Of a stretch of DNA of 42,917 nucleotides, positions 19,845-40,828 are shown piece by piece. Source of the stretch: an uncultured Clostridia bacterium (GTDB lineage Bacteria > Bacillota > Clostridia > Christensenellales > Borkfalkiaceae); NCBI GenBank assembly GCA_947631195.1, contig CANRKK010000018.1, forward strand, positions 1-42,917, written 5' to 3'. The notes beneath the pieces are model-generated. The model searched no databases. It was given only the letters and a program-made list of their open reading frames with translations, and was not told the DNA's origin. A program made the translations under genes and the position numbers. Every line of letters begins with the position of its first letter. The first letter of the stretch is position 1.

Positions 19845-20017
19845 GTTGCCGCCTCCCGTTCGATAAGCAAGCATTTTCCGTGCTTGTAAGCCATGCAATG
19901 GTCGCCCGCGCAGTCTCCGAAGCGTTCTGCCGACTCTGCGACAGGCTTGCCCTTGCGGGTGATTACGTTGCGTACCACGTCCTTTTTGAACGGACAGAGC
20001 ATTGTTTTCTGTTTCAT
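19841..20017 (-). CDS. Small zinc-ribbon-like phage protein, 58 aa
   Basis: ATG at 20017 with GGAG nine bases upstream; the stop overlaps the next start (ATGA). The product MKQKTMLCPFKKDVVRN...FGDCAGDHCMAYKHGKCLLIERE carries Cys8, Cys36, Cys41 and Cys49 in a zinc-ribbon arrangement (CPF ... CxxxxC ... C). The same arrangement recurs in small early phage proteins. Function unknown. Confidence 0.6.
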   Translation of the reverse strand: MKQKTMLCPFKKDVVRNVITRKGKPVAESAERFGDCAGDHCMAYKHGKCLLIEREAAT

Positions 20018-20763
20018 CTTGTTTTTCTCCTTTCGGGAATGTACCCGTTTTCAAATCGTTCCATGAGTTCTTTAAGCGAGAGTCTCGGCTTAAATGTGTT
20101 ATGACTGTCTTTCTCCATCTCCACGAGAACGGAGAAGTACGAGGGATAGTTCTTCCACAAGTCGTACAAATCGGCGTAGCATTGCTTTACGCAAAACCAA
20201 CAACCGCCACGGAAGCCGCCGTTGCTGTAAACGGGGCTGATAAGGTCGAACGGTCGGCAAATCTCAAACGCTTCTCTCTCTATGATGCCGTTCTCGAATA
20301 AAACCGACTTGTAGACGACTTTCTCATTGTTTCTGCGCATAAGCCGCTGATAGCGCGGAGTCTCATCTGCGGCGATGCCTATATATTCGCAAACGGTGTC
20401 GTGCAGGGATGAGATATAGGTGTCTATAACGTCAAGTTTCAACCGAGCATTGCACCATGCGCCAACGATGTATGGATAGCCGTAGTTGTCTCCGATGTGA
20501 TTTCCTTTCTGCTTTATTCGGTAGAAGTAGTCCCTGAATGTGTATTTTGCGGTAAGGTGCTTTACCTTGATACCGAAACGGTCAAGCAGGATCTTTTCTG
20601 CCGTTGGGATCCACGCTGCCATAGCAGGATGTTCTCCGCTTATATCCTTGTCGAAGCGAATATCCACATAGACCACTTCGTCCAAAGGTAATTGAAGTTC
20701 TTTGATTTTGATTATTTGAGCGAGGCTGTCTTTCCCGAACGATAGAAATGCTATGTATTTCAT
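20014..20763 (-). CDS. PAPS-reductase-family (adenine nucleotide alpha hydrolase) protein, 249 aa
   Basis: Start at ATG 20763, since the protein begins MKYIAFLSFGKDSLAQ. The SFGKDS motif is the PP-loop that binds ATP. YPYIVGAWCNARLKLDVI and RGGCWFCVKQ provide a paired-Cys site as seen in phage PAPS-reductase-like proteins. The family covers sulfate activation, tRNA thiolation and DNA phosphorothioation enzymes; phage members are usually unassigned. Placed beside DNA methyltransferases, a role in DNA or tRNA modification is plausible but not shown. Confidence 0.75.
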   Translation of the reverse strand: MKYIAFLSFGKDSLAQIIKIKELQLPLDEVVYVDIRFDKDISGEHPAMAAWIPTAEKILLDRFGIKVKHLTAKYTFRDYFYRIKQKGNHIGDNYGYPYIVGAWCNARLKLDVIDTYISSLHDTVCEYIGIAADETPRYQRLMRRNNEKVVYKSVLFENGIIEREAFEICRPFDLISPVYSNGGFRGGCWFCVKQCYADLYDLWKNYPSYFSVLVEMEKDSHNTFKPRLSLKELMERFENGYIPERRKTR

Positions 20764-20779
20764 TTGCCTTGCTACCTCC

Positions 20780-21391
20780 TTATATCCATTGAATTTGAGT
20801 TCCGCCCGAATAACCTTTCTGCCATACAAACCACGCATACGCGACAGCCGAGCCGCCGCCCTCGCGCATCTGCTGAAATTCGGCGTTCTTTGCGCATAAC
20901 ACACGCTCGCTGAAAACATAAATTGTTTTCGGGGGATATTTGCTGAATAGTTCGTTATATCGAGCCTTGCCCTCTAAAAAGGTGAGTTTCAAGAACATAT
21001 ACACCTTTCGTCCGGGCTTAACCATCTCTAACGCTTTCAGTACAAATTCCTTTGCGTACTTATACGGCGGGTTGGTGAGTATGTCGCAGGTGCAGGGGGG
21101 GGGAGTTGCCGTCAAGAAGTCCGAGACTTTTGTCCCCGGATAGCCGCGATCCACGAGGTCGGACGAAAGAACGATGAAGCCTTTGTCTTTGAGCCTTTGC
21201 GATAGATGCCCTTGTCCGCAAGCACATTCCCAAACGATTGAGAACGGCTTGTCAACGGTAAGCAGCTTGTCTATTGCCACGGGATCGGTGGCGTAGTAGT
21301 CGTTGCTCTCCCGTTCCTTGTCTGTGTGATTTGATGCCCCGAGAGTCTTGTATATCGAGTTGGTATTTCCGCTCCAATCTTTCATACTCAA
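20780..21391 (-). CDS. DNA adenine methyltransferase, phage type, 203 aa
   Basis: Contains ECACGQGHLSQRLKDKGF (SAM-binding motif I region), LSSDLVDRGYP, and the catalytic LTNPPYKYAKEFVLKALEMVKPG (NPPY, motif IV). The domain order and length match small phage adenine-N6 methyltransferases. A run of nine C in the coding strand (21103-21095) encodes Pro97-Pro98-Pro99 shortly before NPPY, so any slippage of one or two bases would remove the catalytic motif. It overlaps the downstream helicase gene's 3' end by 4 bases. Confidence 0.82.
   Translation of the reverse strand: MSMKDWSGNTNSIYKTLGASNHTDKERESNDYYATDPVAIDKLLTVDKPFSIVWECACGQGHLSQRLKDKGFIVLSSDLVDRGYPGTKVSDFLTATPPPCTCDILTNPPYKYAKEFVLKALEMVKPGRKVYMFLKLTFLEGKARYNELFSKYPPKTIYVFSERVLCAKNAEFQQMREGGGSAVAYAWFVWQKGYSGGTQIQWI
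21095..21103. repeat. G9/C9 homopolymer in methyltransferase gene
   Basis: Exactly nine G on the plus strand, aligned as CCC CCC CCC in the coding strand. Such tracts slip readily during replication. It lies upstream of the catalytic NPPY codons. Confidence 0.9.
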
Positions 21392-22869
21392 CCTCTCAAC
21401 TTGATGCCGCGATAGAACGGGTAGCCGTCACGGGTGCATCTGCCTTTGTGAAGTTCGGGGTGTTGCTCCATCCCGGCATTGAACTTCTTTGCGCTACACA
21501 CGAAGTAGCCGTTGCTCTTGCACCAAATCTTGTAGGCATCGTAGAGCGATTTTGCCCGACTCCCGAGGCTCTCGTCCGTCTGTTCGCATTGCTCCTCAAT
21601 GAACTGCAAAACGAGGTCGTTGTCCTTTTCGTACTGCTTGATAACCTCGCGCATTGCGGCGTTCATGGTAAGCCCGCGTTGTTTGTATTTGAAGTAGCCA
21701 CCAAGTAACCAAGTGAAGATGCCCTGAACGGCTTCCTTTGTCTTGAACGCTTCTTTGAGGTTTGTGTCCCGTTCCGCTTCCGTGAAGTGACGGTCGAACG
21801 CGATAACGCGCACACGATCCGAAGCAAAGAGGGATTTGTCCTGTACGGCGGGCAGGTCGTTACATGACAACCACATGGTGAATTGCGGAAGATAAGTCAT
21901 CATAGACTCGTACAAGTTCCGTGCGGTGATTTCTTCGCCGCCTGTGAGCTGCTTTATGACTTCCTCGTCAAGTTTACCGTACTGACTGCTCTCCGCCATT
22001 GAGACAAAGCGTTTGCCTTTCAGAGCGGCGATTGTGGGGCTTGCCGCTTCGGCGTTCCGTGTTCTGTCCGTTTTGCAAATAATGGAGACGGGGGAAACGG
22101 TGGCGTAGTCGCCAAGTAAGTGGTGGATTGTGTTTAAGAGCGTACTCTTGCCGTTGCGGGTTGTTTTGCCCCAAAGGATAAACATACATTCTTCCTTGCA
22201 AACGCCGAGCATCGAGTAGCCCAACGCCCGTTGCAGGTAGTCCGCTTTTTCCTTGTCGCCGCAGGTTATTTCGTCAATAAACCGCTCCCACCGTTCGCAC
22301 CGATTTTCGCCCGTAGCGGAGTATTCGATATTACTTCGCATCGTCAAGAAGTCGCGCCAATCATGCTCCCGGAACGTCATACTGTCAAGGTCGTAGGTGC
22401 CGTTGATGCAGTTGATAAGATTCGGGTTGCTGTCGAACATTGCCACGGGGATAGGCTTCACGCCCGTTGCATCTTTCATCAACCGGTCGCGGAAGCGGCG
22501 ATCTCCCATTTTGGAAACGAACTTGAAGTATTCTTTGCGCTTGTCATCGTCTGTGATCTCGCCGCAGTATAACGTCATAAGGCGTGTAAACTCTTTGATT
22601 TTCTCACCGACAAGAAGTGCGCCCACGTCCTTTTTCCAATAACCGTCATCGTATGTGTACCAACTGCGATTCTCGGGGCAGTAGCGCGTGTCGTTCTCGT
22701 AACATTCCGAGAACAGTTCCGCCATCCCGCTTTCGTCCCACGAATAGCCGGTGTCGCTCGTAGGATGCGCCTCGGGTTTGGCGTTCTTTATGTAATACAT
22801 TTTGTTGGAAAGTTCTTCCGAGAGGATGTATTGTCCGTTTCGGAGTTGAAACAATTCTGCTTCGTTCAT
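21388..22869 (-). CDS. D5/P4-type phage replicative helicase (SF3 family), 493 aa
   Basis: The N-terminal half has the D5-type region (PNLINCINGTYDLDSMTFREHDWRDFLTM), followed by the SF3 helicase core: LQRALGYSMLGVCKEECMFILWGKTTRNGKSTLLNTI (Walker A, ~residue 245), and LPQFTMWLSCNDLPAVQDKS with DRVRVIAFDRHF (sensor region). The C-terminal part (YDAYKIWCKSNGYFVCSAKKFNAGM) is the winged-helix-like D5 tail. There is no primase domain in this protein; a separate PrimPol-type gene (25139-25933) should supply it. Start: AAGGAGG before ATG. Confidence 0.9.
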   Translation of the reverse strand: MNEAELFQLRNGQYILSEELSNKMYYIKNAKPEAHPTSDTGYSWDESGMAELFSECYENDTRYCPENRSWYTYDDGYWKKDVGALLVGEKIKEFTRLMTLYCGEITDDDKRKEYFKFVSKMGDRRFRDRLMKDATGVKPIPVAMFDSNPNLINCINGTYDLDSMTFREHDWRDFLTMRSNIEYSATGENRCERWERFIDEITCGDKEKADYLQRALGYSMLGVCKEECMFILWGKTTRNGKSTLLNTIHHLLGDYATVSPVSIICKTDRTRNAEAASPTIAALKGKRFVSMAESSQYGKLDEEVIKQLTGGEEITARNLYESMMTYLPQFTMWLSCNDLPAVQDKSLFASDRVRVIAFDRHFTEAERDTNLKEAFKTKEAVQGIFTWLLGGYFKYKQRGLTMNAAMREVIKQYEKDNDLVLQFIEEQCEQTDESLGSRAKSLYDAYKIWCKSNGYFVCSAKKFNAGMEQHPELHKGRCTRDGYPFYRGIKLRG

Positions 22870-23561
22870 ACTGCCTCCTTGTCGGTTTCAAACAGGTGCC
22901 TGAAACGTGAATATTGAAAGATAAGCGCGGGAGTTTTCCACGGCTTGCCCATAACTTCCATAGAGAGCGCGTTTCGCTGTTCTACGACCGCAGGGATGCC
23001 TGTGAGCGATAATTGCAGATAAGCCATGTGAACGCACCGGCTGTCAATATCTCCCGCCAAAACGAAGCTGTGCGCCGCATAATTGATTTTGCAATCGTTT
23101 TGCAGAACGTCCGCAAACGCGAGGATCATTCCGCCGCTGCCGCAAGCAGGTTCATACATCGTGAGAATGTCGTTTTTCAAATTGTCGCTTCCCGTCAACG
23201 TGAGCTGCGCCGATACTCGGGAAACGTCATACGGAGTGAAAAACTGTCCTGCCTGTTTACTGCTCGTGTCGCTCAACATATACAGCTCGCCTAACAGGTC
23301 ATAAAAGCCCGTCTCCGGCATTTTCGTTAAGCCGTCCCACACCAATGCGAACAGTTGCGCCATCAAGTCCAAATCGGCTTTATCGTACTTCTGAACGATG
23401 TGCAGATAGCGTTTCTCCCGTTCGTCAAAGTTCGGTATGTCTACCATGTTTGAAATGCAGATCGCCCAACACTCGAAGCAGTCCGATAGGATCTCGTGCC
23501 TGTGGTGCCGCCCGCTGAACTTGTTGACGAGTTTTAGCATTTCTTGTGTTCTATTGTTCAT
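22866..23561 (-). CDS. N-6 DNA methylase-like protein lacking a clear catalytic motif IV, 231 aa
   Basis: Contains KQAGQFFTPYDVSRVSAQLT and MYEPACGSGGMILAFADVL, the entry and SAM-binding motif I of type I/N6 methylases (HsdM-like), and LAGDIDSRCVHMAYLQLSLTGIPA. After ALSMEVMGKPWKTPALIF the protein ends without an NPPF/NPPY motif, so it may bind SAM but not methylate on its own. Such shortened forms are common in phages next to active methyltransferases. Overlaps both neighbours by 4-11 bases. Confidence 0.78.
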   Translation of the reverse strand: MNNRTQEMLKLVNKFSGRHHRHEILSDCFECWAICISNMVDIPNFDEREKRYLHIVQKYDKADLDLMAQLFALVWDGLTKMPETGFYDLLGELYMLSDTSSKQAGQFFTPYDVSRVSAQLTLTGSDNLKNDILTMYEPACGSGGMILAFADVLQNDCKINYAAHSFVLAGDIDSRCVHMAYLQLSLTGIPAVVEQRNALSMEVMGKPWKTPALIFQYSRFRHLFETDKEAV

Positions 23562-24255
23562 TCTTTATTCTCCTGATCCGTTCTATTATTGAGTAGATAT
23601 TCGAGTCGATATAGGGAAGTAGCCGCTCTCGGGCAACCGAGTAGTAACAGTCGTTCTTCTCTATCCCGATGCCGTTTCTGCCGTTTTCGGCGGCTACAAG
23701 CAAGTGACTTCCGCTTCCCATACAAGGATCAAATACCGTGTCGCCCTCGTTCGTGTTGTCTAAAATCAACTCTTTCAAAAGGCTGTGATTTTTCTCGGTC
23801 GGGTGCAGTTTACTCGTCCCGTTAGGGTATTTGAAAACCACGTTTTTGCACCGAGCGTTGAAAGTCTTTGAGCCTTTCTTTTTGTACCATACGGCGAACT
23901 CCACGCCGCTCAAATACACATACTCGCCGTTCATGGGAGAGGGATTTGTTTTCTGCCAAACAATCGGTCGGCAAGTCCCCCCCCCAATCGAGGTGAAAAA
24001 CCTATGTATCTCGCTGAACTGTCCTCTGCCGCAGAATACGCAAATATTGTTTTTCGTAACACGATAGACTTCGGATAGAAATTCTTTGATGCCAAAAGTG
24101 ATAACGTCCGCTTGCCCTTTGTGGAGTGATTGTAAGCCGTTGTCTCTGCGATTCACTTCTCCGTAGGGGATGTCCGTTAAGGTGAAGTCAACGCTGTTGT
24201 CGGGCATTGTGGGCATCACTTTCATGCAATCTCCGTGAGTAATTTTTATTTGCAT
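23551..24255 (-). CDS. DNA methyltransferase, N4/N6 (DPPY-type) class, 234 aa
   Basis: Order of motifs is catalytic first: DFTLTDIPYGEVNRRD (DIPY, a DPPY variant), then KNNICVFCGRGQFSEI, HPTEKNHSLLKELI, and the SAM-binding FDPCMGSGSHLLVAAENGRNGIGIE. This is the beta-type arrangement of N4-cytosine/N6-adenine methyltransferases. Nine G in the coding strand encode Gly91-Gly93 between the catalytic and SAM motifs; slippage would remove the SAM site. The mRNA overlaps the next gene by 11 bases. Confidence 0.85.
   Translation of the reverse strand: MQIKITHGDCMKVMPTMPDNSVDFTLTDIPYGEVNRRDNGLQSLHKGQADVITFGIKEFLSEVYRVTKNNICVFCGRGQFSEIHRFFTSIGGGTCRPIVWQKTNPSPMNGEYVYLSGVEFAVWYKKKGSKTFNARCKNVVFKYPNGTSKLHPTEKNHSLLKELILDNTNEGDTVFDPCMGSGSHLLVAAENGRNGIGIEKNDCYYSVARERLLPYIDSNIYSIIERIRRIKNEQ
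23977..23985. repeat. C9/G9 homopolymer in methyltransferase gene
   Basis: Nine C on the plus strand, in frame as GGG GGG GGG in the coding strand (Gly91-93). Located between the catalytic and SAM-binding motifs of the encoded enzyme. Confidence 0.9.
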
Positions 24256-24304
24256 AGACCGCTCCTATGCCCACTTCCGTGGGCAGATTTTTCCGATAAG
24301 GCGA

Positions 24305-24973
24305 TTAAAAACCGAAAGCCGGAGCCACGCCATAGGAATAATAAGCGTTGTTACCGTTGGCGCCGCCGTTGCTGTTGACATAGCAGAAAAAGGGCGAGTA
24401 GTCGTAATAAGCCGAACGCTCCCACCACCATCTTGAATACTCCTCGCTGTTCTTGAACTTGCAACGGTGGCATTTCTCCGCATAGTAGGGGTACTGCTTG
24501 CCCGTGTTGTCGTTGGAGTAGATCGTTCTGCCGAAGATCTCCATTTCGCTGTGCAGGAACAGTTTGCAGGTCTTTCCGTCTTTCTGAACGGGGATGATGC
24601 CGTCCCGAATATCGGCGGGGAGCCGCTTCGAGAACAGGTTTTCGAGGTACTCGTCCATGTCGTCCATACTGCACGATTCTTCGAGCAGATTTACCGCCGT
24701 GAACGTGATGGGAACGAGGTTGCCGTTCTCGTCCGTATCGTGGTAGAAGTCCGCGATGGCAACGGTGAGGATCTCGTCATTATCGAGCTTGATGTAGAGC
24801 TTGTCTCCTACCTTGAAATATTTCTCGACTTCGCCGCGCTTTTCGATCTCCTTGATCTCCGCGACCGTGTAGGCGGAGAGGGGCTTGATGTCTTTCGACT
24901 TTACGCGCTTCGTAACTTTGCCGTTCTCCGAGATGTTGATATTGAGGTCAATTTCAATCTTGTGATTTTCCAT
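24305..24973 (-). CDS. DUF6273 / C-type-lectin-like C-terminus protein, 222 aa
   Basis: Start at ATG 24973 (AAAGGAGT upstream). The N-terminal ~85 residues (KIEIDLNINISENGKVTKRV ... FKVGDKLYIKLDNDEILTV) are a separate charged region. The C-terminal part follows the DUF6273 pattern: MDEYLENLFSKRLP, LFLHSEMEIFGRTIYS, and a final WWWERSAYYDYSPFFCYVNS-NG...AYYSYGVAPAFGF. This end resembles the C-type-lectin fold that ends variable proteins of diversity-generating retroelements. No reverse transcriptase was seen in this window. The role in the early region is unknown. Confidence 0.75.
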   Translation of the reverse strand: MENHKIEIDLNINISENGKVTKRVKSKDIKPLSAYTVAEIKEIEKRGEVEKYFKVGDKLYIKLDNDEILTVAIADFYHDTDENGNLVPITFTAVNLLEESCSMDDMDEYLENLFSKRLPADIRDGIIPVQKDGKTCKLFLHSEMEIFGRTIYSNDNTGKQYPYYAEKCHRCKFKNSEEYSRWWWERSAYYDYSPFFCYVNSNGGANGNNAYYSYGVAPAFGF

Positions 24974-25142
24974 TTTTATACTCCTTTCTGATTTGAAAAT
25001 AGTGTCGCCAACAGGTGGCGGCGGGTACTGCGTTACAATGCTTTTCGCACCATTCCGCGCCGTTTCTGTGCAGGATCTCCGCACATTCTTTGTGGTCGCA
25101 AGGATGACCGAACAGTCGTGCTATTTCTTCGTAAACGGTCAT
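24954..25142 (-). CDS. Small Cys/His-rich protein, 62 aa
   Basis: ATG at 25142, overlapping the primase stop, with GAGGT upstream. The product MTVYEEIARLFGHPCDHKEC-AEILHRNGAEWCEKHCNAVPAATCWRHYFQ has five Cys and several His, suggesting one zinc site. Function unknown; similar short early proteins are common in Clostridia phages. Confidence 0.6.
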   Translation of the reverse strand: MTVYEEIARLFGHPCDHKECAEILHRNGAEWCEKHCNAVPAATCWRHYFQIRKEYKNGKSQD

Positions 25143-25933
25143 CTTTGATACCTCGTAACGCTGTTTACGATGCTCTCTATTTCTCGGGTTGGGAGAGGTG
25201 GTGAACACGCTTCCTGATTGCATCGGAGCAGCTCTTTGTAGATTTGCTCTTTGGTATATCCCCGGCTATGTAACTGTCCCGCAAGTGAAGTCAATGACTG
25301 ATTTCGGGAGCCGGGAGTGATTTTCGGATATTTCGGTCTCAATGAGATTTTCTGCCCGCTCGGCTTCTCAAAGACAGGTGTGTAAAACGGTGCCGTCTTA
25401 ACCGAGATTCCCGTAGAGGTTTTCTCAACCTCGGGGAAATACTTCTCGACCACATAGTCGATAGCCGCCTGATCTTCGACAATTCGGTCATAGACAAGGC
25501 ATCTGCCCGTCATTATGAAAAACCTGCCTGTCTGATAGATCTCAACGCCGTTACGGTTGTTTCTGCCGCCAAAAGGCAGCGTTCCTTTGATGTAGATGTG
25601 AATACCATGTCCGCTTTTGGACTTCTCCGTGAATGACTTACAGGCTTTCATTATGTCGATACTCAAATCGGACAGAAAACCGTTCTCATCGAAGCCCTTG
25701 TCAATATCAATTCCGACAATTCCGTTATTGTTAAACACGAAGCCGAGATAGTCATATCTGCCGCCCGTAACGGCTTCTTTTGCTTCCTCAAAGGCACACC
25801 AAGTCGTAGGATCGGAAGATGCGGCGGCTCTCTTTTCGTTCGCCCTCATAGGGATTTTGGAGCCGTCCCATGCGCATACCCATTGATGTAAGTCCGTTAA
25901 TTCTTTTGGAATGTTATCGAAATTGTAGCGCAT
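25139..25933 (-). CDS. PrimPol-type phage DNA primase, 264 aa
   Basis: HQWVCAWDGSKIPMRANEKR and SDPTTWCAFEEAKEAV at the N-terminus, then YLGFVFNNNGIVGIDIDKGFDENG (the DID metal-binding acidic pair, about residues 75-77), KSKSGHGIHIYIKG (catalytic His) and GVEIYQTGRFFIMTGRCL. This is the series seen in NrS-1-like primase-polymerases and related DUF-type primases. The C-terminal GSRNQSLTSLAGQLHSRGYTKEQIYKELL is the helical primase C-terminal (PriCT-like) region. It works presumably with the SF3 helicase encoded at 21388-22869. Confidence 0.85.
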   Translation of the reverse strand: MRYNFDNIPKELTDLHQWVCAWDGSKIPMRANEKRAAASSDPTTWCAFEEAKEAVTGGRYDYLGFVFNNNGIVGIDIDKGFDENGFLSDLSIDIMKACKSFTEKSKSGHGIHIYIKGTLPFGGRNNRNGVEIYQTGRFFIMTGRCLVYDRIVEDQAAIDYVVEKYFPEVEKTSTGISVKTAPFYTPVFEKPSGQKISLRPKYPKITPGSRNQSLTSLAGQLHSRGYTKEQIYKELLRCNQEACSPPLPTREIESIVNSVTRYQR

Positions 25934-25935
25934 GA

Positions 25936-26139
25936 CTATTCCTCGCTTGCTTCAAAGAAGTATTTGTTATCGACACAAAGGGGAAAGCCCGGTACTTTAT
26001 CGCTGATACTTACGCTCCCGTTCTTGATGATTTCCCGTGCGATTTTCTCGCTCATAAGATCGTGAGAATAATCCCCGTTGGAGAACAGGTAGAAACTTGC
26101 TTGACCGTTCCGTATTTTTAATTTGAAACTGTTAGCCAT
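25936..26139 (-). CDS. Small early phage protein, 67 aa
   Basis: A 67-residue protein (SFKLKIRNGQASFYLFSNGD...GFPLCVDNKYFFEASEE) with alternating strand-like pattern. AGGAGGGCGAG precedes the ATG. Located between the primase gene and a small overlapping gene in a tightly packed early operon. I do not recognise the family. Confidence 0.6.
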   Translation of the reverse strand: MANSFKLKIRNGQASFYLFSNGDYSHDLMSEKIAREIIKNGSVSISDKVPGFPLCVDNKYFFEASEE

Positions 26140-26377
26140 TCTCGCCCTCCTGTATGTGCCGTATTTCGTTTACAAAATCCTCGAGGGTGGGAGGACGGTA
26201 GAGCCGCCCTCCGCTCTTTTTCAACCGCTTGTCGCTCTTGTCGTTGTCCTCTCCGAAGCGGAAAGCGAACAGCTTCTCCCGGATGCAGACATACAAGTCC
26301 GTGCCTGAAACGGTATAAAAGATTCCCTCGGATTTGCAGAACTTGATGCAGTTTACCTGCAACCTGTTCTCTCTCAT
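26132..26377 (-). CDS. Small early phage protein, weakly nuclease-like, 81 aa
   Basis: An 81-residue protein overlapping both neighbours. The opening RENRLQVNCIKFCKSEGIFYTVSG is faintly similar to the start of VRR-NUC-type nucleases (a Gln after a glutamate, then a helix before a strand), but no convincing catalytic acidic pair is present. Best treated as hypothetical. Confidence 0.5.
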   Translation of the reverse strand: MRENRLQVNCIKFCKSEGIFYTVSGTDLYVCIREKLFAFRFGEDNDKSDKRLKKSGGRLYRPPTLEDFVNEIRHIQEGENG

Positions 26378-26907
26378 TTCCTGCCCAAGATTGCCGCCAA
26401 ATCAACCTTTTTCGGAGCGGTAGCGGCGGGAGAAGTGGGAGCAACCGCAGGTGCGGATTTCGGTGTAGCTTTCGGTGCCACGGGCGCGGCAGCGGGCTTT
26501 GACAGGGTGACGGGTGCATCGTCATCGAAGCCGTTTGCCATTGCCTTTTCTCCCAAGCGGGAGAACGTGATCGTTTTCGTGGGATCGTTTTTGTTGGGCT
26601 GAACATCGTGCTTGACTTCGCATTTGATGAAGTGACCGATAAGGTCGGTATGGTCGATCTCGTCAAGGTCGAAGTCCTGCAAGGCGATTTTTGCAAGGGT
26701 GCTGAATACGCCGAGCGCAACCTCGTTCGGCTCGCCGTTGGATTTGACGAACGCAAACCGTTCGATGTGCGTGTAGCCCTCGCGGGTTTTCATCGTGATA
26801 TTGAGTTTGCCGAAGTCCTCTTTGTACTGCACATCGGTGATCTGAAAGATGTGCGTTCCCTCGGGAACAACGCTGAAATTACTTTCGGAAAGTGCGATTT
26901 TTGCCAT
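26374..26907 (-). CDS. DUF669-like, possible single-strand-binding recombination accessory protein, 177 aa
   Basis: Residues 1-130 (SESNFSVVPEGTHIFQITDV, GKLNITMKTREGYTHIERFAF, LIGHFIKCEVKHDVQPNK) form a beta-rich domain of the DUF669 type found beside ERF/YqaJ genes. The tail is Pro/Ala-rich (APVAPKATPKSAPAVAPTSP) and ends VDLAAILGRK, a short C-terminal motif that might dock partners like the tails of SSB proteins. It immediately follows the exonuclease gene, fitting a recombination module. Confidence 0.7.
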   Translation of the reverse strand: MAKIALSESNFSVVPEGTHIFQITDVQYKEDFGKLNITMKTREGYTHIERFAFVKSNGEPNEVALGVFSTLAKIALQDFDLDEIDHTDLIGHFIKCEVKHDVQPNKNDPTKTITFSRLGEKAMANGFDDDAPVTLSKPAAAPVAPKATPKSAPAVAPTSPAATAPKKVDLAAILGRK

Positions 26908-26923
26908 TTTTATTTACTCCTTT

Positions 26924-27955
26924 TTATTGTTTTTGTGTTGTTAAGCGATAGCCGATTTTCTTTTTGCTGTACTGTGCGAGAAGTCCCGCTTTTTCGAGAG
27001 CGGCGGTATCGACTTCCACGCCCTCGCTTTTGGAAAGCACCCAATTCAACGCCGCGCCCGACAGGGTGACTTTTTCGTCTCCGTCCCTGAACTTCGACAT
27101 GGCGTATTCCTTGATTTGCTTTTTGAGGTTATCGAGCCTGTCCGTGTCCTTTTTGATCTCCGCCATAACCTTGTTGATTTTCGCCGTAAGTATCTCGGCT
27201 TCCGCAAGGATCGCGGTGATTTCCGTTTCCGGGTTGAGGTTGTTTGTGCGCAAAACCTTTAAGATTTCGGCATCCGCTTTCTCGTCAAACTCCGGGGAGA
27301 TCCCGCCGACCACGAGAGCGTTCCACCATTCCCGGGCGGGGATGATATAATCTTCCTCGAACTTCGGGTAGCGTTCGCTCAAACGGAACGGGACGGTGAT
27401 GGTGTTCTTTGCGCTCGGGACAAATTCTTCGGGGTGCGCATAGTCGCTTTCTTCGAGGAACGAGCAGACCATTATCACGCTGTCCACGCCGAGCAGATAA
27501 GCGTACAGAGCCGCTTGCAGGGCGTAGTATTCGGGGATTTCTCCCTGCCAATCCTCGGCGCGTTTGGTCGTCTTGAACTCCAAAACCGAGGTGGGCTTGC
27601 CGTCCTTGTCTACGCGAATTGCATCCCACATTCCGCCGAAAATCGGATCGTCCTTGAAAAAGTCGCCATGCGTTTTGTCGAAGAAGTTTTCGCCGTAAAT
27701 GTCGGTAGGAGCCTTGATGTCGGTCATGTAGTAGGACTTCCGCATATAGGCAATTTGCTTCGGCTCGATAGCCTTACCCGCAAGCGTGTACTGCGTATCT
27801 TCGTAAGGCTTTTCGTAGGTCTTTGTGATCTCGCACCATGTCGCAAAGGGAGAAGTCCACTTGTTCTTCCCGAAGATCGCCGCGAGCCTTGTACCCGTGA
27901 TTTTCTTCGGCTTTTTGGGTGTGTCGATTTTGATTTGATTTTTAAGCCATTCCAT
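26924..27955 (-). CDS. YqaJ-type phage recombination exonuclease, 343 aa
   Basis: The pattern ITGTRLAAIFGKNKWTSPFATW, GGMWDAIRV, TSVLEFKTTKRAEDWQGEIPEYYALQAALYAYLLGVDSVIMVC is the YqaJ viral recombinase core, with the PD-(D/E)xK site as D(AI..)…EFKTT and a downstream YALQ. The C-terminal ~120 residues form a coiled coil (ILAEAEILTAKINKVMAEIKKDTDRL) ending in a small domain. It should produce 3' single strands for the ERF annealing protein whose gene ends four bases upstream. Confidence 0.9.
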   Translation of the reverse strand: MEWLKNQIKIDTPKKPKKITGTRLAAIFGKNKWTSPFATWCEITKTYEKPYEDTQYTLAGKAIEPKQIAYMRKSYYMTDIKAPTDIYGENFFDKTHGDFFKDDPIFGGMWDAIRVDKDGKPTSVLEFKTTKRAEDWQGEIPEYYALQAALYAYLLGVDSVIMVCSFLEESDYAHPEEFVPSAKNTITVPFRLSERYPKFEEDYIIPAREWWNALVVGGISPEFDEKADAEILKVLRTNNLNPETEITAILAEAEILTAKINKVMAEIKKDTDRLDNLKKQIKEYAMSKFRDGDEKVTLSGAALNWVLSKSEGVEVDTAALEKAGLLAQYSKKKIGYRLTTQKQ

Positions 27956-27958
27956 TTG

Positions 27959-28714
27959 TTATGCCTCCGTGGGTTTTGATACTGTTCCGTAGGATTCTAC
28001 GAGTTGCGTAAGTTCGGTAATGAGCTGCTCGCAAGCCACCTTGTTGATGTTCGTCAACTTATCGGTCTGTACCACGATGTCCTGTACGAACGACTCCTGA
28101 TCAGGATCGAGTTCGAGAAGTTTTTCGAGCAGGGCTTTGAGTGCCTGAATTTGCAGGTCGTCCGCCTGTCCATTGCTGTCTACGACTTCCTGTTTGATCT
28201 CTTTCCGCTGTTCGGCGGTGACGGGAGCTTTCTTCGCAGATGCGAGCTTTTTGGTCGTTGTCGCCGCTTCGGGCGCACCGAGTTCGCTGTCAAAGGTGTC
28301 GTTCTCCACGACATCGAGTGCGGTCATGTAAAGGTAACGTCTCTGATAGGTCTCCGCAGATCCCAAGTTCTGAATTGCGTTCGTGAGCTTGCCGCCGGTA
28401 CGGGTGGATTCGATGGATTCGATCTCCCGCATGGGGGAAGTGAACTCTATCGTATTCTCGGGATGCTCGACATCGACCACTTTCATACGCGCATACTCGT
28501 TATCGAAAGTTGTCAAGAACAACAGTCCGAGTTCGTGCGCGATGGGAGTGATGACCGGGACAATATCTTCAAGCTCGAAGTATTTGATTTCGAGATGACG
28601 GTTTAAGCCGGTCTTTTTCACTCCTGCTTCGAGGAAACGCTTCCTTGCTTCCAAGAGCTTTGCAAACACGTTCGTGAGAGCGGGAGTGCTGTTTTCTTTG
28701 TTATTTGCTGCCAT
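27959..28714 (-). CDS. ERF-family single-strand annealing protein, 251 aa
   Basis: The N-terminal domain (NVFAKLLEARKRFLEAGVKKTGLNRHL-EIKYFELEDIVPVITPIAHELGLLFLTTF, GGKLTNAIQNLGSAETYQRRYLYMTALDVVE) is the ERF domain, with the typical GSAETYQRRY segment. The C-terminal half is charged and helical. It acts with the YqaJ exonuclease in phage-encoded homologous annealing. The start overlaps the DNA polymerase stop. Confidence 0.9.
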   Translation of the reverse strand: MAANNKENSTPALTNVFAKLLEARKRFLEAGVKKTGLNRHLEIKYFELEDIVPVITPIAHELGLLFLTTFDNEYARMKVVDVEHPENTIEFTSPMREIESIESTRTGGKLTNAIQNLGSAETYQRRYLYMTALDVVENDTFDSELGAPEAATTTKKLASAKKAPVTAEQRKEIKQEVVDSNGQADDLQIQALKALLEKLLELDPDQESFVQDIVVQTDKLTNINKVACEQLITELTQLVESYGTVSKPTEA

Positions 28715-30605
28715 TTGAGTTATCCTCCAAAATTTTATTTATTCGTTTTTTGATTGCCCTTACTCGGTTGCCGTTAGGCTTTTTCACAACGATACCGAGG
28801 AAGTCTTTGATATACCTTTTCGCCAAGCGGATATACCATGCTTTGTCGATGTCCGCGATGGTGAGGTGATTGTCGTTGTCAATCACACAATGTTCGGGTA
28901 GGTTTGGTATTTTGTTGTCATTGCTTTTGGTCGCGTGTACCTTGTAGAGCGTTCCGTTCCGCATATCCGTGGAAGCGTACACACGGTTGCATCGCTGTAT
29001 CGGGATCTTCTGTCCGTCCACAATCTGAAAGGCTTCCGTGTACTTGCTCGACACTTTGGCGATAAGCTGAAACATGAGAACTTCTTGACAGTCGGTTATC
29101 GTCTTTTCGACCGGCACATCGTCTACGAAGTAGTCAACGATTGCTTTTGCCACGATAACGGCATCGTTATTGATGTTGAACGCTCCGCCTTTGACTTGCT
29201 CCCAATCGGTGGGGCAAACGGTGGAAAGGTCGAGTTTCATGTTCGTGACAATCCCTCGTACCAACCGCCCGCCTTTGATCTTCGGCTTTCCGCTGTTCGG
29301 GATTTCGATGTAGTTGTTGACATCCTTTTGCACGATCTCTTTAATGCAATCTTCTTCAAGCTCGAAACCCGTTCTTTCCTGCCACTCATCGCAGATGGCG
29401 AAGTAGGTTTCCAAGTCCGAATTGTCGAGACTTACCATGATGCCGTCCGTGTTGAGCTGAATGACTTTCAAGGTCGGACACTCTCTTACGAGGTGGAACG
29501 CGAGTTCGAGAAGTCGAAGCTGCCCGGTAATGCACACCGACCGTCCCATGAGCGGATCAAACAGGTCGTTATACTGATTGAGCATCGCTCCGTAGGTCGT
29601 ATTTGCCACGAGTTTGAGCGCATTTGCGGTCGCTCCATCGCCCGCCTTTTTCGCCGCCATGCGCTTTTCAAGCATTTCTGCGTAGATGGTCGGATTCGGG
29701 ATATTTCGGCTACAATAGCCGTCCAAAGTCATAAGGTGGGGATAGTAGCTGCCAACGTCCTTGTTGCGGATGCTACGCTCGTCTGTCGCCCTCTCCCGAT
29801 AGCACGGGATCGCTCCGTGGATGCCGCCATAAGCCACCGTACATTCGCAGTCTCCTATCTTGAAAGTGTAGTTACTGTTGAAAATCACGTCATCGGGGAT
29901 GCTCTTGTCATGCAGCTTGTCGAAGAAGTCGAACACTTCCTGCGGTATGTACTCCCGAAGCAGATTGTCCGGGTAGCGGTAGTCCCGTTCGTCCGTGTAC
30001 TCGACTGTCCGTTTGGCATCGAGGTAGGCAGCAGTCAATTTTGCGTTCGTCATGTAGAGAGCTTTTGTGTCGCTGATACCTTTTACTCTGCCAAGCGTGA
30101 GCTTGTTTTCGAGGTAGTTCTGCCGCAAGAACATGAGCTTTTCTGTTGCATCCACGTCCGATTTGCAGTACCTGATCGTCAAGTCAAGTTCCTCGGACGT
30201 GAGCGGTCGGTCGAGGTTGAAGTCTACATCGGTTTCTTTGATGTTTATCCCCAAGTGAGCCTCGATAGCTTTGAGCGACAGTCCCTGTTGCGTATCGTCC
30301 ATAAGGTCGAACGAGTCGAAGTAGCATTTGCTCGCCTGAATAAAGGGATGCTCCCAACCGTTGTGACCGCTGATTATGAAGTCGCTTATGGTCTTGATCG
30401 TTTCGGGATCTGCATCGCAAAGCACCGCTTTGAGAATGTGATTGTCGTAGTTCTTATTGTTGAAGCCCGCGAGTACATCTTCCTGTTGCATAAATGCCTT
30501 TACTGCTTCGTTATCGTTATGAATGACGGTGTATTCGCCGCTCGAAGCGTTCTTGAATACGAACAGCCAATCGTACTTGAAAACTTCGCAGTCAAAGATA
30601 TACAT
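28701..30605 (-). CDS. Family B-like phage DNA polymerase, 634 aa
   Basis: Exonuclease motifs at the N-terminus: MYIFDCEVFKYDWLFVF (ExoI D-x-E), NNKNYDNHIL (ExoII) and YCKSDVDATEKL (ExoIII). The polymerase part has DVGSYYPHLM (motif A, D-x-x-SYYP, about residue 285), ALKLVANTTYGAMLNQY (motif B) and QLNTDGIMVSLD (motif C, TDG in place of the usual DTDS). Length is short for family B, lacking large thumb insertions, as in some phage replicases. Encoded in the early operon with PrimPol, helicase and recombination genes. A 562-codon open frame on the opposite strand is a shadow of this gene. Confidence 0.88.
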   Translation of the reverse strand: MYIFDCEVFKYDWLFVFKNASSGEYTVIHNDNEAVKAFMQQEDVLAGFNNKNYDNHILKAVLCDADPETIKTISDFIISGHNGWEHPFIQASKCYFDSFDLMDDTQQGLSLKAIEAHLGINIKETDVDFNLDRPLTSEELDLTIRYCKSDVDATEKLMFLRQNYLENKLTLGRVKGISDTKALYMTNAKLTAAYLDAKRTVEYTDERDYRYPDNLLREYIPQEVFDFFDKLHDKSIPDDVIFNSNYTFKIGDCECTVAYGGIHGAIPCYRERATDERSIRNKDVGSYYPHLMTLDGYCSRNIPNPTIYAEMLEKRMAAKKAGDGATANALKLVANTTYGAMLNQYNDLFDPLMGRSVCITGQLRLLELAFHLVRECPTLKVIQLNTDGIMVSLDNSDLETYFAICDEWQERTGFELEEDCIKEIVQKDVNNYIEIPNSGKPKIKGGRLVRGIVTNMKLDLSTVCPTDWEQVKGGAFNINNDAVIVAKAIVDYFVDDVPVEKTITDCQEVLMFQLIAKVSSKYTEAFQIVDGQKIPIQRCNRVYASTDMRNGTLYKVHATKSNDNKIPNLPEHCVIDNDNHLTIADIDKAWYIRLAKRYIKDFLGIVVKKPNGNRVRAIKKRINKILEDNSNGSK

Positions 30606-30609
30606 TCGT

Positions 30610-32019
30610 TCACCTCCTTTTGATTGATAATAGTAGTTGCTTTCGCAGTTGAGCGGCTATGCCCTGCATGACGAACAGTACACACGGAAGTGCCATACCG
30701 TTGCCCCACATTTTGTACTCCGCCGCATCGCTGTGTTTAATGCCGTCACACCACCAATCGGGCATACCTTGTAGTCTCGCGCACTCGGTCGGCGTTACGC
30801 GCCGTACAATCCATTTTGTGGGCGTAGGACAAGCTACAATCTCTCTTTCCTTTCCGTTGCGCTCTCCGCAGCCTTTGTAGTAGTTTGCATCAAGCGTTCC
30901 GGCTTTGGTGCCGTGCAGTCCTGCCGAGTAACAAACCGCGCCCGGTCCTTTTGCGACAAGCGTGTAGGAAATACCGCTGCTGTCAATGCCAATTTTGTAT
31001 TGTGCGTTTTGTCCTTGATTAAATGCCGCTCGGTCGATGGAGTAACATACTCCGATATTCGCTTGCCCTGTTTTCGGGTTGCCCGTTGACAGGCATGGTG
31101 CTATGTCCTCGTGAGAAATGGGATCTTGCAGAATATTCATCCCGCGAATGACGATAAGTGGTGTATTGTTACCGCCTGTTCCCATTCGGGTAGTCAAAGT
31201 TTGCAGAGCCGTTTGGTCGCCGCTGACTTTCAACCTGCTGTCGTGCGGGTGATTATCAAGCAATATTACGGGGGGGGGAGCGGTCGTATCGCCGCGATCT
31301 CCGCTTCCGTCAATTCCGCTTGCTTCACGAGCGCATTTAACAGAATCGGATCTAATTCCGTGCCACGTTTCGCGGCTCTCCGCAAAACTCCTTTGCAAGC
31401 CGTCTTGCTTAAAGAGTATTTCTCCGGCACATTGTCCTGTAAAATCTGCCACAAGGAAGATTCTTCTACGGCGTTGGGGAACTCCCCAAAATTGCGCATC
31501 GAGGACTCTCCATCCGAGGGAATACCCGTCTGCCACGATAAGCCCTGCTGTTCGCCATTTGCCGTCCGTAGGTCGAGGAACAGCGGCTCTACCGTCTTTG
31601 ACTTTGCAAAATTCTTCGAGGACGATTCTAAAATCTTCTCCCTTATGCGAACTGAACGCTCCGGGAACATTTTCCCAAACGGCGTATTTTGGGTATCGTC
31701 CATTTGTTGCTTCATTCATCTCCTTTATGATTCTGATTGCTTCCATGAATAAGCCTGATCTCTCGCCATCCAATCCTGCCCGCCGCCCTGCGACCGAGAG
31801 GTCTTGACACGGGGAGCCGAATGTAATGACATCTACGGGAGCTATTTCCTTGCCGTTTATTTTCGTGACATCGCCCAAGTGCTTCATTTTCGGAAACCTT
31901 GCCGAGGTCACTTGTATCGGGAACGGCTCTATCTCGCTTGCCCACAAGGGTACGAGACCGAATTGTGTTGCCGCGAACGGGAATGTACCCGAGCCGTCAA
32001 ACAGGCTTCCTAACGTCAT
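30610..32019 (-). CDS. DNA cytosine-5 methyltransferase, 469 aa
   Basis: Start chosen at ATG 32019, coupled to the stop of a 34-residue upstream gene (ATGA). Motifs in order: LGSLFDGSGTFPFAA (I), VDVITFGSPCQDLSVAG (IV with catalytic Cys), AVWENVPGAFSS (VI, ENV), QRRRRIFLVADF (VIII), and RRVTPTECARLQGMPDWW with YKMWGNGMALPC (IX-X). The central ~200 residues are the target recognition region, so its sequence specificity cannot be read here. Nine C in the coding strand (31278-31270) encode Pro248-250 between motif VIII and IX. A slip there would remove the recognition region and motifs IX-X. Confidence 0.93.
   Translation of the reverse strand: MTLGSLFDGSGTFPFAATQFGLVPLWASEIEPFPIQVTSARFPKMKHLGDVTKINGKEIAPVDVITFGSPCQDLSVAGRRAGLDGERSGLFMEAIRIIKEMNEATNGRYPKYAVWENVPGAFSSHKGEDFRIVLEEFCKVKDGRAAVPRPTDGKWRTAGLIVADGYSLGWRVLDAQFWGVPQRRRRIFLVADFTGQCAGEILFKQDGLQRSFAESRETWHGIRSDSVKCAREASGIDGSGDRGDTTAPPPVILLDNHPHDSRLKVSGDQTALQTLTTRMGTGGNNTPLIVIRGMNILQDPISHEDIAPCLSTGNPKTGQANIGVCYSIDRAAFNQGQNAQYKIGIDSSGISYTLVAKGPGAVCYSAGLHGTKAGTLDANYYKGCGERNGKEREIVACPTPTKWIVRRVTPTECARLQGMPDWWCDGIKHSDAAEYKMWGNGMALPCVLFVMQGIAAQLRKQLLLSIKRR
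31270..31278. repeat. G9/C9 homopolymer in cytosine methyltransferase gene
   Basis: Nine G on the plus strand, in frame as CCC CCC CCC in the coding strand, after motif VIII and before the recognition region end. Confidence 0.9.
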
Positions 32020-32120
32020 TTCCTGTCCCCGTACAATATCCACAAGGCTTTCTCGTGTTCGGTCAACGGCAGACCGAGAGTGATTTTCGCCTGTATTCTT
32101 TTCAGTTCTTCGTTTAACAT
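32016..32120 (-). CDS. Very small coupled protein before the cytosine methyltransferase, 34 aa
   Basis: ATG at 32120 with AAGGAGG, TGA overlapping the methyltransferase start. The product is MLNEELKRIQAKITLGLPLT followed by EHEKALWILYGDRK: an amphipathic helix, then an ALW-LYG ending. The same kind of short peptide (ending in a Trp-x-Leu-Tyr-Gly motif) occurs in early operons of related phages. It is below the usual ORF-size cutoff. Function unknown. Confidence 0.6.
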   Translation of the reverse strand: MLNEELKRIQAKITLGLPLTEHEKALWILYGDRK

Positions 32121-33519: not shown

Positions 33520-33905
33520 CGTCTCATCCACCTTTCAAGCGTTTCGAGCCGTTGAATCTCCGCGCCGGGGATTTCCGATTTGCCTATTTGCTTGATAGCC
33601 TCGAAAGAGATCATGTAGATTTGCTCTTTGAACTTCAAGGCGAAGAAGCAGGTGTCGTTTCCGTTGCCACAGTTTTGCCAAAGGCGCATCGCGCTTTCCT
33701 GATTGTCCTCTATCCTCGATAGGGGGAAGCCCCTTCCCGAACATACCTTGCAGTCAATAAGAAAGGCTCTACCGTTCTTAACCGCAAGAACATCGGCAGG
33801 TTGTCCCGCTTGCTTTTGAGCGAGGTTGTGCGCCCAAAAACCATTGGAGAATAATATCTCACAAAAAAAGGCTTCAAAGCTGTTGCCCGATTTTTTATTC
33901 GTCAT
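33507..33905 (-). CDS. Holliday-junction-resolvase-like PD-(D/E)xK nuclease, 132 aa
   Basis: The N-terminal KKSGNSFEAFFCEILFSNGFWAHNLAQKQAGQPADVLAVKNGRAFLIDCKV has Glu11 in an N-terminal helix, Asp38 in the QPADVLA strand and the DCK catalytic triplet: the Hjc-like fold order. C-terminal IYMISFEAIKQIG completes the sheet. A phage resolvase of this type would process recombination or packaging intermediates. It overlaps the helicase gene by 13 bases. Confidence 0.8.
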   Translation of the reverse strand: MTNKKSGNSFEAFFCEILFSNGFWAHNLAQKQAGQPADVLAVKNGRAFLIDCKVCSGRGFPLSRIEDNQESAMRLWQNCGNGNDTCFFALKFKEQIYMISFEAIKQIGKSEIPGAEIQRLETLERWMRRCEQ

Positions 33906-35281: not shown

Positions 35282-36940
35282 ATGGATGTAGTTTTATATA
35301 TGAGATATAGTTCCGACAGGCAAAATGAGCAGTCAATCGAGGGGCAACGCCACGTCTGCGAAGAATTTTGCAGAGCATCGGGATTTACCATTCGGGGCGA
35401 ATATGTTGACCGGGCATTGACGGCGACAAAGGATGCAGAGAAACGTCTCGAATTTCAGAAAATGATTAAAGACAGCGAGAAAGGCTTATGGCAAGCGGTT
35501 GTCGTTTATAAGCTCGACCGCTTCGCTCGTAACCGTTTCGACAGCGCAACATACAAGGCAAGGCTGAAAAAGAACGGTGTGAGAGTTATCTCCGCCACGG
35601 AGAACATAAGCGACAATCCCGAGGGCATTATTCTTGAATCCGTGTTGGAGGGAATGGCGGAGTTTTACTCGAAAGAGCTTGCACAAAAAATCACTCGCGG
35701 GATGCACGAGTCGGCTTTGAAGTGTAATTCGTGCGGCGGGCATATCTCGCTCGGATATAAGATAGTGGATAAGAAGTTAGTCATTGACGAGGAAAAGGCT
35801 CCCATCGTCCGTAAGGCGTTCGCTATGTATGCGGCGGGGCAAAGTGTGTCGGAGATCTGCCGGGTACTGAACGCCGCAGGTTATCGCACCAAGACGGGCG
35901 CACGGTTTAACAAGAACAGCTTCCATTCCATGTTCCGTAATAAAAAGTATATAGGACAATATAAATTTATGGATATAGTTATAGACGATGGCGTACCCGC
36001 GATTATAGATAAGGAAACATTTCAAAAGGTACAAGAACGGCTCAAATCTTGCGCTAACGCTCCCGCAAGGGGCAAGGCGTTGGTAGACTATATGCTGTCG
36101 GGAAAGCTGTTCTGTGGGCATTGTGGCGGGCTTATGACGGGTACTGCAAGCACAAGTCATACCGGGCGTAAATATTTCTACTACACCTGCGTAGGACGGC
36201 GTGGAGAGCGCAGCATAAATTGCTCTAAAACGCCCGTGCGTAAAGAGTGGATAGAAAAGGTCGTATTTGAAGATACTCTCGAACTTCTTACGCCCGAGAT
36301 GATAGACCACATAGCAGACATTGCCGTTCAAGCTGCCAACAAAGAGAAAGACGAAAAAACCGCTATCCCGGTCATAGAAGCCGAAATAGCGGATATTGAG
36401 AAGTCTATCGGGAGACTTCTTAAATTGGTCGAGAACGGCGCAGATTCGCCCACATTGGCAGAGAGACTGAATGAGTTGGAGAAAGATCGCAGGAACGCAG
36501 AAAGTCGGCTTTTAGAGGAAAAAGCGACCGTTATAAGGTTGGATAAGCCACAAGTCGTTTACTTCCTTACGGAGTTTACCAACGGTAACGTGGACGATCC
36601 CGAATTTCAGCGGCGCATTATCGACTTGCTTGTCAACTCTGTTACGGTGTGGGATGACGAAGAAGATCCCGGCTCGCAGAAGTTTACCATAACCTATAAC
36701 CTCAATCCCGCCCAAAGTCGAACGATCAGAGTGAAAAACCCCGGCAAAGTCGGGTGCGTATTTCACCCCGACAACTCCACCAAAGCAAGCGGAGGGCTTA
36801 ATAGCCCTCCGCTTGCTTTGGTGGAAGTGGGGGATGAGCAGCATGATGCTGAACCCGTGGTCGCGCCTATGCGTAACGGATTTCAAAGCAAATTTCCGCG
36901 CACGGGCGTAATTTTTAACTTAATATTAAAAATGCTATAA
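35282..36940 (+). CDS. Large serine recombinase (phage integrase), 552 aa, with a likely host-derived C-terminal tail
   Basis: The N-terminal catalytic domain begins MDVVLYMRYSSDRQNEQSIE (nucleophile Ser10) and has VVVYKLDRFARNRFDSATYK. It is followed by a recombinase domain (GYRTKTGARFNKNSFHSMFRNKKYIGQYK) and a zinc ribbon (KLFCGHCGGLMTG...YYYTCVGRR...INCSKTPV). A coiled-coil stretch (VIEAEIADIEKSIGRLLKLVEN) then leads to the last canonical part (KFTITYNLNP). The final ~45 residues span a 22-bp perfect hairpin and then a sequence that recurs in the host 3.3 kb away, so the true phage-encoded end is probably before about residue 515. Start: GGAGAGG. Confidence 0.92.
   Translation: MDVVLYMRYSSDRQNEQSIEGQRHVCEEFCRASGFTIRGEYVDRALTATKDAEKRLEFQKMIKDSEKGLWQAVVVYKLDRFARNRFDSATYKARLKKNGVRVISATENISDNPEGIILESVLEGMAEFYSKELAQKITRGMHESALKCNSCGGHISLGYKIVDKKLVIDEEKAPIVRKAFAMYAAGQSVSEICRVLNAAGYRTKTGARFNKNSFHSMFRNKKYIGQYKFMDIVIDDGVPAIIDKETFQKVQERLKSCANAPARGKALVDYMLSGKLFCGHCGGLMTGTASTSHTGRKYFYYTCVGRRGERSINCSKTPVRKEWIEKVVFEDTLELLTPEMIDHIADIAVQAANKEKDEKTAIPVIEAEIADIEKSIGRLLKLVENGADSPTLAERLNELEKDRRNAESRLLEEKATVIRLDKPQVVYFLTEFTNGNVDDPEFQRRIIDLLVNSVTVWDDEEDPGSQKFTITYNLNPAQSRTIRVKNPGKVGCVFHPDNSTKASGGLNSPPLALVEVGDEQHDAEPVVAPMRNGFQSKFPRTGVIFNLILKML
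36776..36825. other. 22-bp perfect inverted repeat in the 3' end of the integrase frame
   Basis: Arms 36776-36797 and 36804-36825 are exact inverses with a 6-base loop (TTAATA). No T-run follows on either strand, so it is not a standard terminator. It lies close to where phage sequence should give way to host sequence (attR region). Confidence 0.85.
36837..36910 (+). repeat. Host dispersed repeat, copy 1
   Basis: From AGCAGC to GGGCGTA this stretch aligns with the inverse of 40160-40236 (by eye well over 70% identity, including the 17-base block TGGTCGCGCCTxTGCGTAA). One frame preserves SS-L-PWSRLCV-KA in both copies, suggesting an old coding end. It marks bacterial sequence to the right of the prophage. 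Confidence 0.75.
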
Positions 36941-40794: not shown

Positions 40795-40828
40795 AAAAAG
40801 GCAACGGGGGGGGGTTCCGTCGCCTTTT
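40795..40828 (-). terminator. Stem-loop with a G9/C9 loop upstream of TspO
   Basis: Arms AAAAGGCAACGG and CCGTCGCCTTTT with the loop formed mainly by nine G (40806-40814). In the leftward RNA the stem is complete with one G-U pair and is followed by TTTTTT, making a terminator for transcripts from the right. It is the fourth nine-base G/C run in the window. Confidence 0.7.

Follow-up and report, generated by a model that had tools for sequence, protein, structure and literature searches.

Poly-G/C runs in three DNA methyltransferase genes of a temperate Clostridia phage: probable slippage phase variation of phage DNA modification

Introduction

The contig CANRKK010000018.1 of an uncultured Clostridia bacterium (GenBank assembly GCA_947631195.1; the whole contig, C18 of a 2.34-Mb, 81-contig genome, is referred to as the window and has 42,917 bases) carries a temperate tailed phage, which is siphovirus-like by reading of its gene set. 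Three DNA methyltransferase (MTase) genes of this phage, named here C5, N23, and M20, each contain an in-frame run of exactly nine G or C bases. The question raised by this locus is whether the runs act as contingency loci, at which a change in length switches the gene, or have a simpler origin in codon use, sequencing error, programmed frameshifting, or gene decay. On comparison with related sequences, slippage phase variation of phage DNA-modification genes is very probably the best explanation.

Three nine-base runs in methyltransferase genes

The three genes and their runs are located as follows.

30610..32043, minus strand: C5 cytosine DNA MTase (C5), 477 residues, in frame; PF00145 4.6e-44, PHROG_116 DNA methyltransferase 3.5e-81, PDB relatives HhaI and HaeIII
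31270..31278, minus strand: C9 run (coding strand), Pro-Pro-Pro, codons 256–258 of 477 in C5, before the C-terminal IX-X part
23551..24255, minus strand: N6/N4 DNA MTase (N23), 234 residues, in frame; PF01555 5.5e-25, PHROG_67 DNA methyltransferase, PDB relatives DpnA and CcrM
23977..23985, minus strand: G9 run (coding strand), Gly-Gly-Gly, codons 91–93 of 234 in N23, between TDIPY and FDPCMGSGS
20780..21391, minus strand: PHROG_799 DNA MTase (M20), 203 residues, in frame; PHROG_799 2.9e-63
21095..21103, minus strand: C9 run (coding strand), Pro-Pro-Pro, codons 97–99 of 203 in M20, shortly before ILTNPPYKYAKEF (NPPY)

In addition to its PF00145 match, the C5 translation contained SPCQDL and WENVPG, which we take to be the PCQ and ENV motifs of C-5 cytosine MTases. 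N23 combined the PF01555 match with TDIPYG and FDPCMGSGS, presumably its DPPY-like motif and its FxGxG-like S-adenosylmethionine (SAM) motif. The names of the NPPY, SAM, and IX-X motifs that flank the runs are likewise our assumption. The M20 protein had no match in Pfam, NCBIfam, or PDB.

A sequence-only reading of the window had reported nine-base G/C runs at 21095–21103, 23977–23985, and 31270–31278, codon-aligned in phage MTase genes (Pro3, Gly3, and Pro3) and each before or within an essential part of the enzyme (before NPPY, between the catalytic and SAM motifs, and before the recognition/IX-X part). These positions and placements were exact; on the forward strand the runs are G9, C9, and G9, respectively, and all three are in codon phase 0 of minus-strand genes. 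Its statement that runs of 6–8 were absent elsewhere held for lengths 7 and 8, but one G6 was found at 41643–41648, and its list of nine-base runs, correct for these three, had overlooked a fourth, a G9 at 40806–40814. The G/C runs of length 4, 5, 6, 7, 8, and 9 in the window numbered 106, 16, 1, 0, 0, and 4, respectively. Runs of at least 9 were expected 0.04–0.09 times under Markov models of order 1–3, and the four observed corresponded to a Poisson P of ~2.5e-6 at the expectation of 0.09. The fourth run was in none of the recognised phage genes; it was part of an inverted repeat (AAAAGGCAACGG...CCGTCGCCTTTT) that ended in TTTT and was terminator-like. All three coding runs of the window were in MTases. 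A change in run length would break the protein, as at a contingency locus: the shifted frames in the window stopped within 3–53 codons.

A constraint at the protein level, under which the loops benefit from Pro3 or Gly3 linkers and the homopolymers simply follow from codon use, would fit the proline runs, since CCC was the commonest proline codon in the phage genes of the window (109/250). It would also fit the best 120 of 7,837 M20 hits listed from 5.8 billion proteins (197–240 residues, uninformative for broken copies), 12 of which had Pro-Pro-Pro or Gly-Gly-Gly before NPPY, including four (P0002–P0005) of the five closest hits other than the protein of the window itself. However, GGG was rare among glycine codons (46/481), and the coding strand of the runs was poly-G in some cases and poly-C in others, with more than one codon phase and more than one place within a single family. 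Furthermore, many of them broke the frame, which no demand of the protein explains. Such a constraint is therefore scarcely probable as the cause.

Orthologous runs in related phages

All three runs recurred at the same codons in two related phages. The first (L352) was a phage in Anaerocaecibacter muris CLA-AA-M11 (NCBI: Clostridia, Pumilibacteraceae), the polymerase of which was 79% identical to that of the window. Residues 1–93 and 90–234 of its N23 aligned in different frames, with the shift exactly at a G10, and residues 1–258 and 256–474 of its C5 aligned in different frames, with the shift exactly at a C9, whereas its M20 was intact with C9. The broken N23 was still 82% identical to that of the window after the run. 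The second phage was represented by two IMG/VR contigs that were 99.9% identical over their overlap (L111/L221, IMGVR 3300024269_000258, and L035). C5 with a C10 was broken at 256–258 in both, and the longer contig (L111/L221) had N23 with a G10 broken at 91–93 and M20 intact with C9 (L221). In both related phages, the C5 and N23 frames were lost exactly at the run and M20 was intact. Among other relatives, N23 was intact with G8 in L180, and C5 was intact with C9 in L031. Homologues with other tract lengths, which the sequence-only reading had proposed as a check, were thus present at the same codons as G8 and G10 (N23) and C10 (C5).

The aligned protein pieces of the relatives were 42–82% identical to those of the window, and the runs have therefore outlasted much change around them. 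Other close homologues had no run at that place (L112–L118 for M20; L181 and beyond for N23). An Eggerthellaceae genome (L354) likewise contained a C5-MTase-like frame with a G9 run.

If ribosomal or transcriptional slippage were programmed at the run, each gene would give two products, and the broken frames would still be decoded. The upstream and downstream pieces did overlap at the run, and homopolymer frame breaks are a classical place for slippage. However, programmed sites keep a fixed shift, whereas the frame of these genes was kept in some phages and lost in others, with lengths of 8, 9, 10, and 11, and poly-G/C is to our knowledge not a usual slippery motif. We consider programmed slippage extremely unlikely.

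Distribution of runs in a polymerase-based survey

The first loci had been picked by their MTases; therefore, a second set was picked by the phage DNA polymerase.

28701..30605, minus strand: phage DNA polymerase, PHROG_1252 1.5e-145; used as MTase-independent bait

The best 80 of 439 polymerase relatives were used, and 61 of the 80 contigs (893 kb) were left when near-copies were dropped. Modification genes were marked by home-made profiles with 30 bases on either side and made up 4.5% of the bases, a share that depends on these profiles, by which some modification genes were missed. In the 61 contigs, 35 of 53 G/C runs of at least 8 were in modification genes (binomial P ~1.6e-34), a concentration in one functional class beyond chance, as contingency loci would have. 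For G/C runs of 5 the count was 19 of 376. None of 40 A/T runs of at least 8 was in a modification gene, which is a weak control with fewer than two expected by area. The 35 runs were distributed over C5 MTases (25), M20-type genes (4), PAPS-reductase-like genes (3), Dam-like genes (2), and an N23-type gene (1).

The numbers of G/C runs of lengths 5–11 in all 80 contigs were 474, 19, 15, 35, 23, 6, and 3, a bimodal distribution in which lengths 6 and 7 were rarer than 8 and 9, whereas the numbers of A/T runs in the same set fell smoothly (2741, 692, 184, 33, 7, 1, and 1).

The 18 runs outside the marked genes included four in PAPS-reductase-like genes by Pfam (L247 twice, L294, and L244), two in C5 MTases by reading (L276 and L277), two in MazF/PemK-like genes (L225 and L264), and five in or at the 5' part of PHROG_7024 genes (L227, L228, L231, L234, and L250); five were elsewhere or had no assignment. 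When 20 run-bearing open reading frames (ORFs) were searched against Pfam, nine matched PF00145, three PF01507, two PF05869, one PemK, and one ERF, and four had no match.

The following genes of related phages with runs were observed in addition to the MTases.

L294:16064-16969, L258:8762, L231:7749-8534, L241:1388-2344, L244:5241-6155, L247:6466-7350: PAPS-reductase-like genes containing G/C runs, that of L294 coding for the glycines in a GGKDS-like loop
L225:16934-17305, L264:8198-8815: MazF/PemK-like genes, G8/C8 near an end; possibly switchable
L228:17415-17786, L231:17048-17473, L234:8818-9237, L227:7417-7767, L250:9728-10171: PHROG_7024, a small phage family, G8/C8–C9 run in or near the 5' part in five contigs

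Variation of run length between near-copies

Runs of at least 7 were compared in 62 alignments of at least 1 kb and at least 95% identity, with 11 identical ones set aside. The length differed in 13 of 36 G/C comparisons and in 3 of 66 A/T comparisons (Fisher P 6e-5; the comparisons are not independent). Counted by place, 8 of 16 G/C runs were variable by our own reading. The same alignments contained 120 other gaps in 393 kb. Between L158 and L167, which were 99.6% identical and came from two metagenomes by name, five of six runs differed, three of them by two bases and once as 6 versus 8; two of the six compared runs were in MTase genes. The M20 gene of L158, with C8, was intact, and that of L167, with C7, was broken. 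In the C5 MTase of L228, L229, and L230, runs of G8, G9, and G10 gave open frames of 405, 327, and 324 residues, respectively. Among close relatives, the run length thus varied and the frames were intact or broken, as expected of a contingency locus.

An artefact of assembly or sequencing, in which homopolymer errors in the consensus create the length differences and broken frames, must be considered, as the data were consensus sequences throughout, many of them metagenomic, and a one-base difference in a run of 9–10 can be an error. Errors, however, cannot explain the existence of the runs or the presence of 35 of 53 within 4.5% of the sequence. The low variation of A/T runs and the two-base differences between L158 and L167 also argue against it, and the named-strain genome of A. 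muris CLA-AA-M11 had two genes broken at the run. An artefact is thus very unlikely to be the explanation.

The M20-type family

M20-type genes were kept if their aligned pieces started by residue 60 and ended at or beyond residue 170, which gave 91 distinct genes with that of the window included. A run of at least 8 was found in 23 of them, near codons 68, 81, 85–87, 95–102, and 147–154. The frame was broken in 10 of the 23 genes with a run (13 were intact) and in 4 of the 68 without (Fisher P 9e-5), and the break was at the run in 10 of 10, as judged by the borders of the aligned pieces. Two of the four broken genes without a run of at least 8 (L167 and L175) had a run of 7 at the break. Within the host family, 16 of 398 genomes had an M20-type match at an E value of 1e-20; five of the 16 had a run of at least 8 in the match, and two of these five were broken. 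The tree of the 91 genes required 17 changes of run presence for 23 bearers, a hint of many gains and losses; it had few columns and many unresolved forks, and the groups by run zone were only mildly clustered.

Ordinary decay, by which MTases are dispensable and frameshifts gather at mutable runs with no selection for switching, would agree with the 14 of 91 M20-type genes broken in consensus and with most homologues being without runs. Neutral runs would, however, be expected in other dispensable genes, yet the other 95.5% of bases held only 18 of the 53 survey runs, several of them in modification genes missed by the profiles. The shortage of lengths 6 and 7 and the 82% identity kept after the run by the broken N23 of L352 also speak against decay, to which we assign little probability.

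Runs elsewhere in the host genome

The whole 2.34-Mb genome contained 85 G/C runs of length 7, 19 of length 8, and 22 of at least 9. Outside the window, 37 runs of at least 8 (19 of length 8 and 18 of at least 9) were all inspected by ORFs and Pfam, with 14 distinct ORFs of at least 140 residues (stop to stop) at the runs. None of the 37 runs was inside a Pfam domain of these 14 ORFs. A Pfam family was found in 4 of the 14 ORFs, always away from the run; the ORFs of L001 and of L215 (minus strand) started beside the run, and in L023 (SecDF-like) and L213 (release factor) the run was in the same frame, upstream of the domain. No other coding run of the MTase-run kind was recognised among the 37 by ORFs and Pfam. 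Many of these runs were in dispersed repeats of the type AATATT-G(8-11)-TGGG..GGGACAAAAT. The host runs, many of them lying in dispersed repeats and none in a Pfam domain, therefore do not explain the phage runs, and the repeats were rejected as their source.

A dispersed repeat, AATATT-G(8-11)-TGGGYGGGACAAAAT, was observed at many places of the genome (L001–L030 and L202–L220). A C5-MTase-like ORF of 129 residues (L330 5555-5944, G000 C15) was considered as a further case and rejected, as it was short and contig C15 had no G/C run of at least 7. It belongs to a different phage-like region of this genome and comes after a ParB/MTase-like ORF.

Other genes of the window phage

The recognised phage genes included the tape measure, major head protein, portal, large terminase, RecE-like and Erf-like recombination genes, primase parts, and the integrase. 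Five genes of the window were DNA-modification-like: C5, N23, M20, an N6_Mtase-like protein, and a gene similar to 3'-phosphoadenosine 5'-phosphosulfate (PAPS) reductase.

22866..23561, minus strand: N6_Mtase-like protein without a run; PF02384 9.7e-11, also a weak hsdM match
20014..20919, minus strand: PAPS-reductase-like gene, without a run in the window; PHROG_424 1.1e-31; homologues in relatives have runs
35282..36940, plus strand: integrase, also matching DNA-invertase families; PHROG_95 5.6e-122
32131-33531: helicase by reading; ResIII match accompanied by Helicase_C and DEAD

No restriction nuclease was recognised among 18 distinct ORFs scanned, a subset of those in the window. A DUF6273 protein (24305-25084) with an aromatic-rich C-terminus and a weak Hoc-like decoration match adjoins N23 inside the replication module. 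The PAPS-reductase-like genes may belong to a further DNA-modification pathway, by an assumed analogy to DndC-type enzymes.

Weight of the evidence and proposed mechanism

The sequence-only reading had interpreted the runs as contingency loci, and this was supported by same-codon runs of other lengths and by the intact and broken frames of relatives, from which switching itself would follow as the interpretation. The observed part comprises the positions and frames of the runs, their recurrence at the same codons, their variation in length, the frame changes at the run, and the concentration in modification genes.

Several points weigh on the other side. Two of the three window runs are of proline codons, and three CCC in a row are less odd than they appear because CCC is the commonest proline codon here. 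A run of at least 8 was absent from 68 of 91 M20-type genes. All lengths are those of an assembly consensus, to which homopolymer errors can add one-base noise, and among more diverged pairs (identity of at least 90%, with genome contigs added) the contrast shrank to 14 of 38 G/C versus 15 of 152 A/T sites, with 430 further gaps over 753 kb. A megablast of 14 kb against 50,697 phage records yielded a single match with 6% coverage, and the phage of the window was thus not found a second time. Moreover, the host shows hardly any sign of selection for the OFF state, with no Mrr_cat hit in its own genome (Mrr_cat was present in 17 of 93 genomes of the genus) and no McrBC hit there by a weak profile that matched only 1 of 14 control genomes.

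In the proposed phase variation, slippage would be the mutational step: the poly-G/C run would slip during replication and gain or lose bases, and a change that is not a multiple of three would break the MTase frame at the run. The broken product would be without NPPY in M20, without the SAM motif in N23, or without the target-recognition and IX-X part in C5, and methylation would presumably be lost until a further slip restored the frame. With three MTases and independent runs, up to eight methylation states would therefore be available per clone. The benefit would likely be bet-hedging, as a modified genome would escape enzymes that cut unmodified DNA and be exposed to modification-dependent enzymes, so that neither state would be best in every host. 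An effect of the lysogen on host gene expression, as a phage-borne phasevarion, is possible.

More broadly, we consider it rather likely that a broad group of temperate gut phages, in Clostridia hosts, with the G9 run of L354 also in an Eggerthellaceae genome, runs a combinatorial, stochastic epigenome, in which MTases of several classes, PAPS-reductase-like genes, and occasionally MazF-like genes each have their own repeatedly gained poly-G/C switch. One lysogen would then produce virions with many modification patterns against restriction of both unmodified and modified DNA.

Comparison with known systems

The methylation of phage DNA is usually regarded as fixed for a given phage. If the proposed phase variation is true, the infectivity of a clone on restricting bacteria would be a distribution, the broken MTases of viral assemblies would be explained, and pipelines that label such genes pseudogenes would need correction. 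Epigenetic bet-hedging in a virus could then be tested directly, for which the named host strain A. muris CLA-AA-M11 is available. A literature search, with few subscription papers and preprints in its scope, gave no account of modification genes of phages being switched by poly-G/C runs.

The closest precedent is found in Campylobacter phages (Fletchervirus), whose receptor-binding proteins undergo poly-G phase variation, as reportedly described by Sorensen et al. 2021 (Cell Rep 35:109214). In a 2025 review it is called an exceptional case (PMC11959909), and another review credits the Campylobacter phage work with showing phase variation in phages (PMC11868660). Phase-variable bacterial MTases and phasevarions are well known (review PMC13076061), a reported example being a Type IIG enzyme of Campylobacter jejuni (PMC4889913). 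According to Sun et al. 2023 (PMC10477858), a study of the human gut phagenome, MTases occur commonly in gut phages, with a presumed role against host restriction; the words phase, homopolymer, and frameshift did not occur in its main text.

As in phase-variable bacterial MTases, simple-repeat slippage would toggle a DNA MTase, here as deduced from sequences; the bacterial examples are restriction-modification genes, whereas these MTases are in a phage replication module. As in the Campylobacter phages, the genes are phage-encoded, hypermutable poly-G runs would switch their expression, and the benefit would be against host resistance. Those phages switch receptor-binding proteins, and their host has poly-G switches of its own. 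In contrast, the putative switches described here are in DNA-modification enzymes of temperate gut Clostridia phages, with several switches per phage.

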